The position numbers and the translations under genes were made by a program. Below the pieces are notes generated by a model. It worked only from the letters and a program-made list of their open reading frames with translations, ran no database searches and was not told the origin of the DNA. A DNA stretch of 64,000 nucleotides, taken from contig JALHMR010000007.1 of assembly GCA_022843945.1 (NCBI GenBank), positions 1 to 64,000 on the forward strand, read 5' to 3'. This document shows positions 22,382-28,882 of this stretch, in pieces (the stretch's first letter is position 1; each line of letters opens with the position of its first letter). This DNA is from Rhodospirillaceae bacterium (GTDB lineage Bacteria; Pseudomonadota; Alphaproteobacteria; CACIAM-22H2).

Positions 22382-22846
22382 TCACTTCAGGGTCATCAGA
22401 TAGGCGACGACGTCCTCGACCTGCTGGTCCGAGAGGATGGTCGTGCCCTGGAAGCGGCGCGTCACCTTGTTGAGGCCATCGACGCGGTAGAACGGCGGCA
22501 TCATCGTATCCGGGTTGACCTTGGTGCCGTCCACGATGCGCAGTCGGATCTCGCCTTCGCTCATGCGTGAGGCCACGCCATCGAGGCTCGGTGCGACGTT
22601 GCCGTGATACGGCTCGCTCTTGAGGTTGGTGATCTCGTGGCAGGCGAGGCAGTTGCCAAGGGTGCGGCTGACAATGACCTGACGGCCCTTCTGGACGTCA
22701 CCGGTCGTGCCGGTGAGATGGGTATCTATCTTGCCGTCCTTGATTGTGAACTTGGCGAATGGCGCGTTCGCCGCGCCCTGCGACCAGGCAGAGGTCGGGC
22801 CGGCCAAAAGACCGATCATGGTCAGGGCTGACAAGAAAAACCGCAT
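22382..22846 (-). CDS. soxX: Cytochrome c SoxX
   Basis: Monohaem subunit (154 aa) of SoxAX. It has a Sec signal (MRFFLSALTMIGLLAGPTSAWS), haem site CLACH at 66-70, and axial Met in NPDTMMPPFYR (Met115 or Met116). It is the first gene of the soxX-Y-Z-A-B-ccdA operon. Upstream lies a 233-bp divergent promoter region shared with the Bug-protein operon, containing a long AT-rich dyad at 22945-22980. Confidence 0.97.
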   Translation of the reverse strand: MRFFLSALTMIGLLAGPTSAWSQGAANAPFAKFTIKDGKIDTHLTGTTGDVQKGRQVIVSRTLGNCLACHEITNLKSEPYHGNVAPSLDGVASRMSEGEIRLRIVDGTKVNPDTMMPPFYRVDGLNKVTRRFQGTTILSDQQVEDVVAYLMTLK

Positions 22847-22944: not shown

Positions 22945-22980
22945 GAGCATGCATATTTGAAGTCTCTAATATAGGCGCTC
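22945..22980. promoter_or_regulatory. Putative sulfur-responsive operator in the sox divergent promoter
   Basis: A symmetric dyad: GAGC-N4-ATATT-N10-AATAT-N4-GCTC. The core 22953-22972 is ATATTTGAAGTCTCTAATAT. ArsR-family sulfur sensors (SqrR, BigR, SoxR) bind AT-rich dyads of this general kind in sox promoters. A nearly identical core lies at 28082-28101 before the YeeE/tusA pair. It is about 100 bp from each start codon. No ArsR gene is in the window, so the regulator is inferred. Confidence 0.6.
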
Positions 22981-23079
22981 CTGCCTTTCGAACCAACTCC
23001 TTGTCCGCCGGTTGCCTGGCTGCCTGCCGGGAGGCAAGGTGACCCTCATACCGTGGGTTGAGCGAACTGGGAGGCAACC

Positions 23080-24072
23080 ATGCGTCCAGGATTTCGGGCG
23101 ATCTTCGTTGGAATTGCGGCCTTGCTGCTGACTGCCGACCCGGCAGCGGCACAGTACCCCAGCCGACCCATCCGGATCATCGTCCCGGCGGCTCCCGGTG
23201 GGGGCGCCGATATACTGGCGCGCATCATCGGGCAGAAGCTCACCGAAAGCTGGAGTCAGCCAGTGGTGGTGGAGAACCGGCCCGGCGCCTCCGGCCAGCT
23301 GGGCGCCGCGCTGGCGGCCCGGGCGACGCCGGATGGCTACACGCTCCTCCTGGCGACCACCGGGACGCTGATGGCCGTGGCAACGGCCGGGCCCTCGGGT
23401 CCCGTGGTGCCCAGCGAGCCGTTCGATGTGACCCGCGAACTGTCGCCGGTGACACTCGTCGCGGCTCCGCCGTACCTGCTTGTCGTGCATCCCGGAGTCC
23501 AGGCGCAATCGGTGGCCGAGCTCATCGCCCTGGCCAAAAGCCGGCCCGGTGCTCTCAACTTCGGCTCGTCCGGAAGCGGCGCGGCCTCCCATCTCGCGGC
23601 GGAGCTGTTCAATGCCACGGCCAGGATCTCCATGGTTCACGTCCCCTACAAGGGCCAGGGGCAGGCCGTCGCCGACCTGCTCGCCGGGCAGGTCCAACTG
23701 ATGTTCTCGCCGGCGCCGCCGGTCACCACCCATGTCCGCGCCGGGACATTGCGGGCCCTCGCCGTCACCGGGGCCGTGCGGTCGGCTTTCGAAGCCGACC
23801 TGCCGACGATTGCCGAAGCGGGGCTGCATGGCTACGAGGCCACGGGCTGGTTCGGGTTGTTGGCCCCGGCGCGCACGCCCGTGGAGATCGTTGATCGCCT
23901 GAGCGCAGAGGTCGGGCGCCTCCTGCGGCTGGAGGATGTGCGCGTCCGGCTGAGCCAGCTCGGTGCGGAACCGGCGCCATCGACGCCGGCAGCCTTTACG
24001 CTGTACATCAACGACGACATCGCGAAGTGGCTGAAGCTGATCCGCCACCTCAACATCAAGATGGAGAATTGA
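23080..24072 (+). CDS. Tripartite tricarboxylate transporter (Bug/TctC) substrate-binding protein
   Basis: Periplasmic binding protein (330 aa). The Sec signal ends ADPAAAQ, followed by the family opening YPSRPIRIIVPAAPGGGADILAR, then VVVENRPGASGQLGA and PYKGQGQAVADLLAGQVQLMF. ATG 23080 has GGGAGG upstream. No TctA or TctB permease is encoded nearby, which is common for Bug proteins. It opens a tight plus-strand operon (5-bp gap to the next gene) divergent from soxX across the putative sulfur operator, so a link to sulfur substrates is possible but unproven. Confidence 0.92.
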   Translation: MRPGFRAIFVGIAALLLTADPAAAQYPSRPIRIIVPAAPGGGADILARIIGQKLTESWSQPVVVENRPGASGQLGAALAARATPDGYTLLLATTGTLMAVATAGPSGPVVPSEPFDVTRELSPVTLVAAPPYLLVVHPGVQAQSVAELIALAKSRPGALNFGSSGSGAASHLAAELFNATARISMVHVPYKGQGQAVADLLAGQVQLMFSPAPPVTTHVRAGTLRALAVTGAVRSAFEADLPTIAEAGLHGYEATGWFGLLAPARTPVEIVDRLSAEVGRLLRLEDVRVRLSQLGAEPAPSTPAAFTLYINDDIAKWLKLIRHLNIKMEN

Positions 24073-24077
24073 GAGCG

Positions 24078-24497
24078 ATGGCGGAATCGCCCGCGACCCA
24101 GGCCCAGATCGTTCGCCAGGCGGAGCGGCTGGCGCCGCGGCGCAACGAAACCGTGCCTCCCGAACGCGCCGCCGAGGCGATGTTCCATCGCATCGTCGCC
24201 TATATTCGTGAGTTCGAAGCCAATCTCGACAGCGAGCACGAGGTCGGGGCGCGCATGGTCTCGTTCGGCGATACGGTGCAGTTCCACATCGTCGATATGG
24301 GCTACTGGAATCCCGATATCGTCACCTTCGACGGCGTCGACGAAGGCGGACGTCGCATGAAGCTCATCCAGAATCTCTCGCAGCTCAATGTCCTGCTCAT
24401 CGCCATGCCCAAGCGTATCGGGCACGAAGAGCCGCGCCGCATCGGCTTCGTGCTGGAGAACAAGACGAACGGCGATAGCGCCGCACCGGCGACCTGA
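24078..24497 (+). CDS. Small conserved hypothetical protein (possibly DUF6173)
   Basis: A 139-aa soluble protein with no signal peptide or membrane segment. A hydrophilic N-terminal helix (ATQAQIVRQAERLAPRRNE) leads into an alpha/beta segment: REFEANLDSEHEVGARMVSF, QFHIVDMGYWNPDIVTFDG, LSQLNVLLIAMPKR. The pattern reminds me of the DUF6173 family of alphaproteobacteria, recalled and not checked. ATG 24078 lies 5 bp after the Bug gene. Function unknown; its position suggests a cytoplasmic role linked to the sox-divergent operon. Confidence 0.75.
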   Translation: MAESPATQAQIVRQAERLAPRRNETVPPERAAEAMFHRIVAYIREFEANLDSEHEVGARMVSFGDTVQFHIVDMGYWNPDIVTFDGVDEGGRRMKLIQNLSQLNVLLIAMPKRIGHEEPRRIGFVLENKTNGDSAAPAT

Positions 24498-24507
24498 CGG
24501 CCGTACG

Positions 24508-24915
24508 ATGCCGCAACCGCTTGCCGAGATTGGTGACCGTATCGATCTGCTGAAGATGACGCTTGGCATGTTCGCGCCGAGCGAGCCGGTACCGATCGCC
24601 AGCGAACTGGTGGGATTGAGCGAGGAGATCTTCGAGCACTGGCTGATCGCCAGAGGCGAGGCCGCCGCTGCCGATACGCCGCAGGAGGCACGATTGATGG
24701 CGCTCCACGCGGCAGCTGTGCTGGGGGAGCCGGGTTTCGGCAGACTGGCCGCGGCCTGTCGCGACGCCGTCCATCTGCGCGATCTCGTGGCCGCCGAGCC
24801 GGACCACCCGGAAACGGGCGAGCGTCTGATTCTGGCGGCGGAGCTGGCTGGCGACATATATTCAGCGGTCACCCGCCGCATGATGGGACTGGGCGAGCCG
24901 GATAAGAAGCTATGA
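24508..24915 (+). CDS. Hypothetical helical protein
   Basis: A 135-aa protein I do not recognise. It reads as almost entirely helical (IGDRIDLLKMTLGM, EEIFEHWLIARGEAAAAD, RLILAAELAGDIYSAVTRRM) with no cysteines likely to bind metal and no export signal. Start at ATG 24508; the open frame further upstream is an overlap with the preceding gene. Its stop overlaps the next start by 4 bp (ATGA), so it is coupled to the alpha/beta hydrolase. Confidence 0.7.
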   Translation: MPQPLAEIGDRIDLLKMTLGMFAPSEPVPIASELVGLSEEIFEHWLIARGEAAAADTPQEARLMALHAAAVLGEPGFGRLAAACRDAVHLRDLVAAEPDHPETGERLILAAELAGDIYSAVTRRMMGLGEPDKKL

Positions 24916-25841
24916 GCCGGAGTATGAAACGGTCTCTGCGGGTGAGGGTCGGCGCCGTCCTGCTTCTCTGTCTGACCGTCATCACGGCGCGTGCGGAGGA
25001 GGTGAGTACGCGCTTTCGCGGGCTGACCCTGCTGGGCAATCTGGAACTGGCCGAAGGCAAGGGCCTGGAGAGCGGCGTGGCGGTCGTCGTCCATGGCCTG
25101 CTGGCGCATAGCGGCATGGAGATGATCGCCGCGCTGCAGAAGAACCTGAAGTCGCGGGGCATCTCGACACTGGCGATCACTCTCAGTCTCGGTGTGGACG
25201 GTCGCACCGGCTTCTTCGATTGCGGCCGGCTGCATGCCTACCGGCCGATGGATGCGCTGGACGAGATAGACGCCTGGATCGGCTGGCTGAAGAACAACGG
25301 CGCCGCCGAGATCGCCTTGATCGGCCACAGCCAGGGCGGCAATCACGTCGCGGTCTATGCCGCGGAACGCAACGATCCCTCGGTCAGCGCGGTCGTGCTG
25401 ATGGCGCCGGGCACTTTCGATCCGGCGCGGGCCGCCGAACGCTACAAGGCCCGCTACGGCGCCGATATAGAGCCGGTACTTGCCGACGCGCAGGCGCGCG
25501 TCCGAGCGGGACAGGCGGTCGAGCGCTTTCCCGGGATCGCCTTTCTCAGCTGCGAGAACGCCACGGTCACCGCCGGCAGCCTGGTCGGCTGGTACGGGCC
25601 GGAGCCGCGGCGGCACACCCCGTCGATTCTGCCGCGAATCAGCGCGCGCACACTGGTGGTGGTTGCCGGTGCCGACGAGGTCGTGCCGGACTTGCGCGAG
25701 GCTGTCGAGCCGCTGGCGCGCGATGCCGGCCGCCGCCAGGGCGAGATCCGCGTCCATACCGTCGATGGTGCGGACCATTTCTTCCGCGATCTCTTCGTCG
25801 AGGACGCGGCCGACGTTATCGCCGACTGGCTGAAGGGTTGA
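24912..25841 (+). CDS. Alpha/beta hydrolase with signal peptide
   Basis: Predicted periplasmic alpha/beta hydrolase, 309 aa. A signal peptide (MSRSMKRSLRVRVGAVLLLC to ITARAEE) precedes a fold with oxyanion-region VVVHGLLAHSG and nucleophile elbow ALIGHSQGGNH (Ser140). The acid lies near GADEVVPD and the base is His284 in DGADHFF. An FFDCGRLHAY loop and Cys in FLSCENAT are unusual. Fourth gene of the operon that diverges from soxX. Natural substrate unknown; a thioester or ester is possible. Confidence 0.85.
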   Translation: MSRSMKRSLRVRVGAVLLLCLTVITARAEEVSTRFRGLTLLGNLELAEGKGLESGVAVVVHGLLAHSGMEMIAALQKNLKSRGISTLAITLSLGVDGRTGFFDCGRLHAYRPMDALDEIDAWIGWLKNNGAAEIALIGHSQGGNHVAVYAAERNDPSVSAVVLMAPGTFDPARAAERYKARYGADIEPVLADAQARVRAGQAVERFPGIAFLSCENATVTAGSLVGWYGPEPRRHTPSILPRISARTLVVVAGADEVVPDLREAVEPLARDAGRRQGEIRVHTVDGADHFFRDLFVEDAADVIADWLKG

Positions 25842-25857
25842 GCGCCCAGGGGCCGGC

Positions 25858-26952
25858 ATGGCCCTCTACACGCGGAAGACGTATAACTGGCCCCTATACA
25901 GTCACGGCTTGTGGGGGGACGCCATGGCCTGGAACCACGAATTCGTGCATCTCGACGCGGCGCTGAGCACGCTCGAGGCGCGGCAGGGCCGCACCGCGGT
26001 GGACTGGACGGGTGTTCGCGTCGCCCATCTCGACACCGGCTACACGCGAGGGCACCCCGTATTCGGCACGTGGACCGGTGACGATTCGCCGGTCATCCTG
26101 GCAAGTCAGGGATTGTGCCTGGTTCCCAAGCCGCCGCCCGTGGTGCCGCCGGTCGATACCGGGATCGGCAGCGGGCCGCTGCGCAACCCCTGGCACGGCA
26201 CGCGCACCGGCAGCGCCCTCGCCGGGCTGAAGTACAAGGAGTTCGTCGGCTGCGCTCCGGGCGTGCCGATCATTCCGTACCGGGTGGTCGACGACGTCGT
26301 CCCTTTGGGTGACGCCGAATGGCTGCCTATCGCCGAAGCCCTGAGGCACGCGGTCTACACCGCGGGCTGCAGTATCGTCAGCATGTCTCTGGGTGGATTC
26401 TATCCCCACCGCGAAATGGGACGGGCCGTCGACGAGGCCTACGAGCGCGGCGTGATCATGGTGGCCGCCGCGGGCCAGCACAGCGATCGCGTCACCTACC
26501 CGGGCAAGTATGCGCGGGTGTTCGGCGTCGGCGGTCTACGGCGTCTGCCCAACGGCGAGATCCGGGTCTACTACGACTATTCGGACCATTCGGAGCGGGT
26601 CGACATCTGGGCGCCCGCCGCCCCGATCACCCGGGCCGATCCAATTGTCCCCGGCAACGACCCACCGATCGGTTCAGGGGACGGAACTTCCTATGCCACC
26701 GTGCATGTCGCCGCCGCCGCTGCCATCTGGCTGCGCTATCGCGAGGCGGAACTGGTTCCCTATGAAGGCTGGCGCCGGGTGGAGGCGTTCTGGCATTGCC
26801 TGAACCGCACGGCCAGCATGGCGAAAATGCCGGTGGGCGGAAACCGCTACGTCAACGGCGTGCTGGACGCGCGGGCTATCCTTGATGTGCCGCTGCCGCC
26901 GCCGGAAAGGCTTAACCCGAACTGGCGCCGGGCCGAGGACGAGCATCAGTAG
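25858..26952 (+). CDS. Subtilisin-like (S8 family) serine peptidase
   Basis: A 364-aa subtilase-fold protein with no recognisable signal peptide or prodomain. Triad: Asp59 in VAHLDTGYTRGHP, His113 in NPWHGTRTGSALAG, Ser278 in SGDGTSYATVHVAAAAA. The oxyanion-hole Asn of the usual AAAGN is Gln207 here (VAAAGQHSD), so activity may be altered. SIVSMSLGG is the conserved substrate-binding strand. ATG 25858 has AGGGGCC upstream. It follows the alpha/beta hydrolase by 16 bp and ends convergent with the YeeE-type gene. Probably a cytoplasmic maturation or quality-control protease. Confidence 0.87.
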   Translation: MALYTRKTYNWPLYSHGLWGDAMAWNHEFVHLDAALSTLEARQGRTAVDWTGVRVAHLDTGYTRGHPVFGTWTGDDSPVILASQGLCLVPKPPPVVPPVDTGIGSGPLRNPWHGTRTGSALAGLKYKEFVGCAPGVPIIPYRVVDDVVPLGDAEWLPIAEALRHAVYTAGCSIVSMSLGGFYPHREMGRAVDEAYERGVIMVAAAGQHSDRVTYPGKYARVFGVGGLRRLPNGEIRVYYDYSDHSERVDIWAPAAPITRADPIVPGNDPPIGSGDGTSYATVHVAAAAAIWLRYREAELVPYEGWRRVEAFWHCLNRTASMAKMPVGGNRYVNGVLDARAILDVPLPPPERLNPNWRRAEDEHQ

Positions 26953-26973
26953 AGGCGCCCACCAGGAAAAAGA

Positions 26974-28077
26974 TCAGCCGCGGGCCAGCAAGGCGCGCAG
27001 CGCGCCGCCGAAGCTGCCTTCCTCGAGATACTTCATGCCGTAGACGCCGCCGGCCAGGATCGACAGCCAGGCCAGGACCGAGCCCGCGGCCAGGGTCGAC
27101 AGGCCGGTGATGCCCTGGCCGATCGTGCAGCCCAGCGCCAGCACGCCGCCCGTGCCCATAAGAGCGGCCCCGCCCAGATGGCGCAGCACGTCGGCTGCAT
27201 CGGCGAAGCTCTCGATGCGGAAGGTATTGGTGGCAAGCGCCATCAGGAACGAGCCGGCGATGACCCCGCCGACGATGGCGATGCCGAAATTGATCTTCGC
27301 CCCGGTGAAGACCATCAGGTACATGAGGCTCTCGCCGACCGGTGCCACGAAGGTGAAGGAGGCCAGGGGCGTCGGTTCGAACTCGTCGGCACCGATGACA
27401 CCGGTGATCCACCAGCCCGCCGGGATCAGAGCGCCGATGATCAGCGCGCCGACGACCGTGTCACGGCTGGCGCGGAACTCGCCGTCCTTAAAGCAGTACC
27501 AGAGGAGCGCCAGCACCGCGGCGCCGGCCATCAGCCAGCGCAGCAGCGGGATCGACAACCCGCTCACCGCCGCCGCCATGTCGGGTATGCCCTGCGTGCG
27601 CAGACCGGTCCGCGTGAGATTGAGGTTGGTGGTCTCGATGAACTGCGCGCGGGGCAGGGCGAGCAGGCCGCGCAAGGTCATGTAGGCGAAGAGGCCGAGC
27701 ACGATCGCCACGACCAGCGATTTGAGATTGCCGCTGCCCAGCCGGACCAGCGTCTTGTTGCCGCAGCCGCCCGTCAGGGTCATGCCGAAGCCGAACATCA
27801 GGCCGCCGAGAACCGCGCCGAGCCAGCCGAGATTGGGCGTCAGGTAGATCGACTTGCCGAGATCGACGAAGCCGCCGAGATGGAGGAGCTGGCTGCCGGC
27901 CAGGGCCACGGCGATGGCCAGCAGCCAGGCGCGGAAGCGCCGGTAGTCCTGCAGGTTCACCATGTCGGAGATGGCGCCCATGGTGCAGAAATTCGTGCGC
28001 TGCGCCGTGGCGCCGAACACGATGCCGGCGGCAAAGCCGAGAAGAGCGACGAGAGTGGCGACGGGAAGATCGGTCAT
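26974..28077 (-). CDS. YeeE/YedE (TsuA-like) sulfur-compound membrane transporter
   Basis: Membrane protein (367 aa, about ten segments) of the YeeE/PmpA family, which moves thiosulfate or sulfane sulfur through cysteine-lined paths. The conserved cysteine loops are visible: QRTNFCTMGAISDM (Cys31), GGCGNKTLVRLGSGN (Cys105) and ALGCTIGQGITGLS near residue 312. ATG 28077 is used; an in-frame TTG at 28125 would add 16 residues but would cross the operator-like dyad. Divergent from tusA, its usual partner, so together they probably import and hand over sulfur. Confidence 0.92.
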   Translation of the reverse strand: MTDLPVATLVALLGFAAGIVFGATAQRTNFCTMGAISDMVNLQDYRRFRAWLLAIAVALAGSQLLHLGGFVDLGKSIYLTPNLGWLGAVLGGLMFGFGMTLTGGCGNKTLVRLGSGNLKSLVVAIVLGLFAYMTLRGLLALPRAQFIETTNLNLTRTGLRTQGIPDMAAAVSGLSIPLLRWLMAGAAVLALLWYCFKDGEFRASRDTVVGALIIGALIPAGWWITGVIGADEFEPTPLASFTFVAPVGESLMYLMVFTGAKINFGIAIVGGVIAGSFLMALATNTFRIESFADAADVLRHLGGAALMGTGGVLALGCTIGQGITGLSTLAAGSVLAWLSILAGGVYGMKYLEEGSFGGALRALLARG

Positions 28078-28081
28078 CGGT

Positions 28082-28101
28082 ATATTTACGGTTGCTAATG
28101 T
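28082..28101. promoter_or_regulatory. Putative sulfur-responsive operator between yeeE-type gene and tusA
   Basis: ATATTTACGGTTGCTAATGT. It has the same ATATT-N10-AAT-x-T form as the dyad in the sox promoter core (22953-22972), sharing ATATTT and CTAAT in register. It lies 5 bp upstream of the yeeE-type start and 61 bp upstream of tusA. Confidence 0.55.
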
Positions 28102-28162: not shown

Positions 28163-28390
28163 ATGTCGACGACCATCCTCGATACCAAAGGCCTCAACTG
28201 TCCGTTGCCGATCCTGCGGGTGAAGAAGGCGATCAAGGACGTGCCGGCAGGCGGCACGCTGCAGGTCCTGGCCACCGATCCCGGAGCGGTCAAGGATTTC
28301 GAAGCCTTCTGCAAGGCGACCGGCCAGCAGCTGCTCGACTGGAAGGAAGAGGCCGGTATCTTTACCTTCAACATCCGGAAGGCTGGCTAG
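28163..28390 (+). CDS. tusA: TusA/SirA-family sulfurtransferase
   Basis: A 75-aa cytoplasmic sulfur carrier. The family signature is LDTKGLNCPLPILRVKKAI, with Cys13 of the CPxP motif as the persulfide-bearing residue. ATG 28163 has TTGGAG upstream. Divergent from the YeeE-type transporter and followed directly by the HbpS/GlcG gene. In sulfur oxidisers TusA feeds sulfane sulfur to Dsr or sHdr systems, neither of which is seen here; delivery to biosynthesis is also possible. Confidence 0.93.
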   Translation: MSTTILDTKGLNCPLPILRVKKAIKDVPAGGTLQVLATDPGAVKDFEAFCKATGQQLLDWKEEAGIFTFNIRKAG

Positions 28391-28882
28391 ATGTACCGCT
28401 TCGGCTGCGCCCTGTTCGCGCTGGCGCTGACGCTCCCGGCTGCGGCCCAGGACGGCACCGTCTCCTATAAGTCCCTCAGTCCCGACGTGGCACTCGACCT
28501 TGCCCGTGCCACGCTGGAGAACTGCCGTCAGCGCGGATTCCAGGTTGCGGTCGCGGTTGCCGACCGCTTCGGCGTGACGCAGGTGATGCTGCGTGACCGC
28601 TTCGCCGGGCCGCATACCCCGTCTACGGCGTCGGGCAAGGCCTGGACTGCGGTGACTTTTCGCACCAGCACCACGGACCTGGTCGCGATCAGCCAGCCTG
28701 GCATGCCGCAGGCTGGCATTCGGGCGCTGCCGGGCGTCGTGGTGATCGGCGGGGGGCTGCTGATCGAAGCCGGCGGCTCGTTCCTGGGTGCGGTCGGGGT
28801 GTCGGGGGCGCCGGGCGGCGACGCGGACGACGCCTGCGCCAAGGCCGGTCTCGAGGCCGTCCGCGACAAGCTCGATTTTTGA
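28391..28882 (+). CDS. Secreted GlcG/HbpS family haem-binding-like protein
   Basis: A 163-aa protein with a Sec signal (MYRFGCALFALALTLPAAAQ) and one GlcG/HbpS domain: ALDLARATLENCRQRGFQVAVAV, DRFAGPHTPSTASGKAWTAVTF, GVVVIGGGLLIEAGGSFLGAVGVSGAPGGDADDACA. Members bind haem or cobalamin or act as extracytoplasmic redox sensors. The ATG abuts the tusA stop codon, so the two are co-transcribed. Role in sulfur metabolism is inferred only from this context. Confidence 0.88.
   Translation: MYRFGCALFALALTLPAAAQDGTVSYKSLSPDVALDLARATLENCRQRGFQVAVAVADRFGVTQVMLRDRFAGPHTPSTASGKAWTAVTFRTSTTDLVAISQPGMPQAGIRALPGVVVIGGGLLIEAGGSFLGAVGVSGAPGGDADDACAKAGLEAVRDKLDF

Follow-up and report, generated by a model that had tools for sequence, protein, structure and literature searches.

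Two dyads that lie between divergent genes of a sox/tusA sulfur island are best read as operators of one dimeric repressor of the ArsR family, a member of the HlyU/SqrR/BigR/SoxR class whose gene is unlinked to the island and located on contig C14. We give this reading a probability of roughly 0.78. The evidence comes from the rarity of the dyad in the genome, from its conservation upstream of sulfur genes in relatives and from its co-occurrence with the clade of this candidate regulator.

Two dyads between divergent sulfur genes

The first-pass annotation had described two dyads with a 10-bp spacing in the window (the whole stretch of 64,000 nucleotides that was analysed), and both 20-mers are indeed present in its sequence at the positions given in Table 1. 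It had also ascribed common arms to the two sites and a symmetric GAGC frame to the first, and the sequence bears this out: dyad 1 has perfect 5-bp arms followed by two further inner pairs (ATATTnGAnnnnTCnAATAT), and GAGC and GCTC flank it in exact symmetry, while the arms of dyad 2 are imperfect (ATATT...AATGT). The frame was not seen at the sox site of a genome of the same genus (G001) and is therefore probably incidental. Dyad 1 is found ~107 bp from the start codon of either soxX or the Bug gene, while dyad 2 ends 4 bp ahead of the YeeE start codon. No consensus sigma-70 promoter was found in either intergenic region.

Table 1. Dyads, flanking genes and candidate regulator gene (window positions, except for the gene on contig C14).
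Feature	Position	Strand	Description
dyad 1	22953..22972	.	ATATT-N10-AATAT; predicted operator between divergent soxX and TctC/Bug gene; minus strand: ATATTAGAGACTTCAAATAT
dyad 2	28082..28101	.	imperfect ATATT-N10-AATGT; predicted operator between divergent YeeE-type transporter gene and tusA; minus strand: ACATTAGCAACCGTAAATAT
outer GAGC/GCTC frame of dyad 1	22945..22980	.	GAGC at 22945-22948, GCTC at 22977-22980
soxX	22382..22846	-	downstream genes on the same strand include soxY, soxZ, soxA and soxB
TctC/Bug substrate-binding protein gene	23080..24072	+	transcribed away from soxX; dyad 1 may act on it too; PF03401, E 5.7e-60
YeeE/TsuA/SoxT-type sulfur transporter gene	26974..28077	-	ATG at 28077; PF04143 (Sulf_transp), E 4.2e-65
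tusA sulfur-carrier gene	28163..28390	+	ATG at 28163; divergent from transporter gene; PF01206, E 1.1e-21
candidate ArsR regulator gene	C14:69253-69591		paired cysteines C30 and C96, 66 apart

The products of the sox genes all score above the cut-offs of the SoxX, SoxY, SoxZ, SoxA and SoxB models (TIGR04485, TIGR04488, TIGR04490, TIGR04484 and TIGR04486, respectively), and TsuA models match the YeeE-type transporter, but below their cut-off. Also within the island, a gene read from its sequence as a subtilisin-like serine peptidase (25858-26952) separates the Bug operon from the YeeE gene, and an HbpS-like gene (28391-28882) comes right after tusA; HbpS-like genes are found near tusA/YeeE or arsR in two of the compared genomes (G002 and G023) too. 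The same genome carries a second sox-like set (G000 C62:8947-9369, L138), with a SoxX that is 45% identical and with SoxY-, SoxZ- and SoxA-like neighbours; no dyad was found upstream of this set.

Rarity and conservation of the dyad

The pattern AYATT-N10-AATRT has 4 sites in the whole 5.38-Mb genome, against 1 for a reversed-pattern control, and AYATTAG-N8-AATRT has exactly 3 exact sites genome-wide, which are the sox, tusA/YeeE and pdo/rhodanese promoters. The third of these dyads, which was found blind, lies between divergent genes for a persulfide dioxygenase (PDO, ETHE1-type) and a rhodanese-DUF2892 protein, both names being read from the sequence with no family model. Genes of these two kinds are classic targets of sulfane-sulfur sensors. 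Two other matches are probably due to chance, both being unconserved even in the same-genus genome: an exact dyad between an alpha/beta-hydrolase gene and the cysteine-synthesis gene cysE (G000 C49:28724-28743, L004), and a dyad with one mismatch in front of an RND efflux operon whose end faces the candidate arsR in convergent orientation (G000 C14:64866-64885, L171, L172). In some relatives this arsR again has RND-type genes next to it, but not the dyad.

In the window, the joint pattern of both dyads with at most 2 mismatches gave 3 matches (in 2 places) when 0.32 were expected, a post hoc count in that the pattern had been derived from the two dyads themselves. A weight matrix was also built from 18 training sites, of which 17 came from other genomes; dyad 1 and dyad 2 were not among them. 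This held-out matrix ranked dyad 1 (30.7) and dyad 2 (19.8) first and second in the 64 kb, the next score being 11.7. The best scores from 20 random 64-kb sequences of similar GC content ranged from 5.5 to 19.2, so that dyad 2 by itself barely exceeds what chance can give and depends on its conservation for support.

For conservation, the regions upstream of orthologs were scanned for dyads with at most 1 mismatch, using the mean of dinucleotide shuffles as the expectation. Dyads were found upstream of pdo in 12/29 relatives (shuffle mean 0.37), upstream of YeeE/tusA in 5/21 (0.17) and upstream of soxX in 4/19 (0.3), these counts coming from related genomes and not from independent events. The shared-operator idea of the first-pass annotation, for which conservation upstream of sox or tusA was one of the checks, thus survived that one. 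In the same-genus genome, soxX has a weaker dyad at almost the same place (-122 vs -126), and soxX dyads were also found in G006 and G023. As for YeeE, dyads lie upstream of it in G002, G006, G003 and G023, and are missing from most of the more distant genomes of the family. Elsewhere in two of these genomes, dyads precede a SorA-like molybdopterin sulfite dehydrogenase gene and a DsrE2-like gene (G002 C116, L077; G006 C316, L076), which are likely further members of the regulon under these sequence-derived names.

Several points could suggest that the two dyads resemble each other by chance or merely through AT-rich promoter composition: promoters of GC-rich genomes are AT-rich, the pattern was picked after both sites had been seen, dyad 2 is imperfect with a matrix score just over the random best, and the cysE and efflux-pump matches are probably chance ones themselves. 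Still, this explanation is highly improbable and is already contradicted by the rarity of the dyad, by its conservation above dinucleotide shuffles at three target genes, by its co-occurrence with the ArsR clade described below and by the ranking of both dyads with the held-out matrix; that the pdo/rhodanese site was found blind argues against it as well. The two dyads are a real, conserved pair of predicted operators.

We see an even balance for a narrower version of the shared-repressor reading, in which dyad 1 regulates sox only and the divergent Bug gene is an independent neighbour. G006 and G023 have a different gene opposite soxX, yet keep their soxX dyads, and dyad 1 is about equally distant from both start codons; against this, the same-genus genome keeps the soxX-Bug arrangement together with its dyad. 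Judged from position only, dyad 1 may also control the Bug gene.

A candidate regulator on another contig

The first-pass annotation had noted that the window holds no ArsR gene and had supposed that an ArsR-type sulfur sensor is encoded elsewhere. Seven HTH_5 matches were detected in the genome, none of them in the window or elsewhere on its contig (C7), and one of the seven, the ArsR gene on C14, has exactly the paired cysteines of persulfide sensors, which lends support to that supposition. The C14 protein scores 50.8 bits against PF01022 (cut-off 22) and also exceeds the cut-off of NF033788; its closest solved relatives by sequence are HlyU (E 4.5e-29), then SqrR (2.9e-27), YgaV and BigR. 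Its C30 and C96 are invariant in 11 aligned relatives and align to the sensing cysteine pair of SqrR. Since its match to the NCBIfam BigR model NF040642 (E 9.4e-25, 86.5 bits) falls under the curated cut-off of 155, we call it a class member and not BigR: judged from its sequence, it is an ArsR of the HlyU/SqrR/BigR/SoxR persulfide-sensor class. A genome search for the dyad near an ArsR gene with paired cysteines, as had been proposed, thus yielded such a gene, but no dyad near it.

The link between this regulator and the sites was followed across the family, counting pdo dyads with at most 2 mismatches and the half-site ATATTAG, and assigning proteins with 64% identity or more to the ArsR clade. 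A pdo dyad was present in all 10/10 family genomes with this clade and in 0/6 without it; with bare half-sites counted, the figures were 10/10 vs 1/6 (Fisher p 0.0014, a guide only, the genomes being related). The YeeE dyad is absent in eight family genomes that have the clade. Over the whole class, a dyad lies shortly before the arsR start in 10/30 ArsR relatives (0.54 in shuffles), mostly the less similar ones. A scan around the 80 closest arsR genes in the genome collection gave 6 exact dyads vs 3 for two control patterns. The close ArsR clade therefore appears to be mostly not autoregulated and, since few dyads lie near the nearest arsR genes and none at the C14 gene, the regulator-site link rests on the co-occurrence above and on G023. 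This genome, from another family of the same class, has a ~10-kb cluster that comprises arsR, pdo, a SoeA-like molybdopterin gene, tusA, a DsrE2-like gene and YeeE. Three dyads lie in this cluster, of which one is perfect at pdo (ATATTAGATTAATCTAATAT), one has 1 mismatch at the SoeA-like gene and another lies at YeeE.

Alternatively, the dyads may be shared operators that are read by a different protein, such as a persulfide sensor of the CsoR/CstR type, a LysR-type protein or the product of a soxR gene that the assembly lacks. One CsoR-family gene does exist (C16:26413), the C14 arsR lacks a dyad and is unlinked to its supposed targets, and the assembly is ~97% complete, so that a linked soxR could be missing from it. 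We nevertheless regard another reader as unlikely, because the presence of the dyad follows the ArsR clade across family genomes, because G023 encodes that ArsR within its cluster of three dyads, because genes of ArsR relatives are themselves preceded by the dyad, and because the dyad spacing fits the SqrR motif. Altogether, these genomic patterns indicate that the unlinked C14 ArsR is very probably the regulator of the dyads.

A predicted persulfide switch and its known relatives

In SqrR, HlyU and Hyphomicrobium SoxR, the dimer binds DNA when reduced and lets go of it once a sulfur bridge joins the cysteines (PMC10509353, PMC10451225), and we infer from these relatives that the C14 ArsR may bind, repress and be switched by polysulfide in the same way. 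Its operator would consist of ATATTAG half-sites with 5-bp arms 10 bp apart, idealised as ATATTAG-N6-CTAATAT. When sulfane sulfur is absent, the reduced dimer would sit on the dyads and keep sox, tusA with the YeeE-type transporter gene, and the pdo/rhodanese pair repressed. Metabolism of thiosulfate or sulfide would then generate more persulfides and, with them, a sulfur bridge between C30 and C96, upon which the bridged ArsR would leave the DNA and its target genes would be turned on. In the light of work on SoxT (PMC11582611), it is sensible that a YeeE-type importer and tusA would be controlled jointly with sox.

The predicted system resembles that of SqrR from Rhodobacter capsulatus, a persulfide-sensing ArsR repressor with an aligned cysteine pair that controls sulfide and sulfane-sulfur genes. 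The SqrR recognition sequence, ATTC-N8-GAAT (PMC9774250), has the same ATT-N10-AAT spacing as the dyads, but neither of them has its C/G pair beside the spacer; the half-site here is ATATTAG instead, the predicted targets include periplasmic sox and tusA/YeeE, and the regulator gene is unlinked to them. SoxR/sHdrR proteins (Hyphomicrobium denitrificans, Paracoccus, Pseudaminobacter) are likewise cysteine-pair ArsR repressors of sox promoters, encoded beside the YeeE-like soxT (PMC10451225, PMC11582611, PMC12423496), and the sox promoters are predicted targets here too, whereas those systems have soxR linked to the sox genes (soxSRT arrangement) and the window's contig has no HTH_5 match. The literature consulted on SoxR gave no operator consensus at the level of single bases. 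BigR (Xylella, Agrobacterium, Acinetobacter) controls a sulfur transferase/dioxygenase, its blh/persulfide dioxygenase target (PMC5823870); it shares this kind of target and a cysteine-pair switch with what we predict, but is encoded in one operon with that target. Finally, Vibrio HlyU belongs to the persulfide-sensing ArsR cluster (PMC10509353), but activates unrelated genes, and its V. cholerae site (TAATTCAGACTAAATTA; PMC4330345) was rejected as a match for the dyads, the spacing not being common to both.

Compared with these known sulfur switches, the points of interest are thus the unlinked regulator and the slightly different half-site, the kind of switch itself being already known. We hold it to be a toss-up whether the broader picture applies, in which a repressor of the HlyU/SqrR class that is unlinked to its targets and not autoregulated would act through an ATATTAG-N6-CTAATAT operator as the single switch of a dispersed regulon made of periplasmic sox, tusA/YeeE import and pdo/rhodanese, possibly with a TctC-type uptake gene, in a family whose sox cluster has no soxR of its own. 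The analysis assigns a predicted regulator and operator to a sox/tusA sulfur island without a regulator gene in its vicinity, and the consensus may be used to find the remaining sulfane-sulfur regulon in the family.
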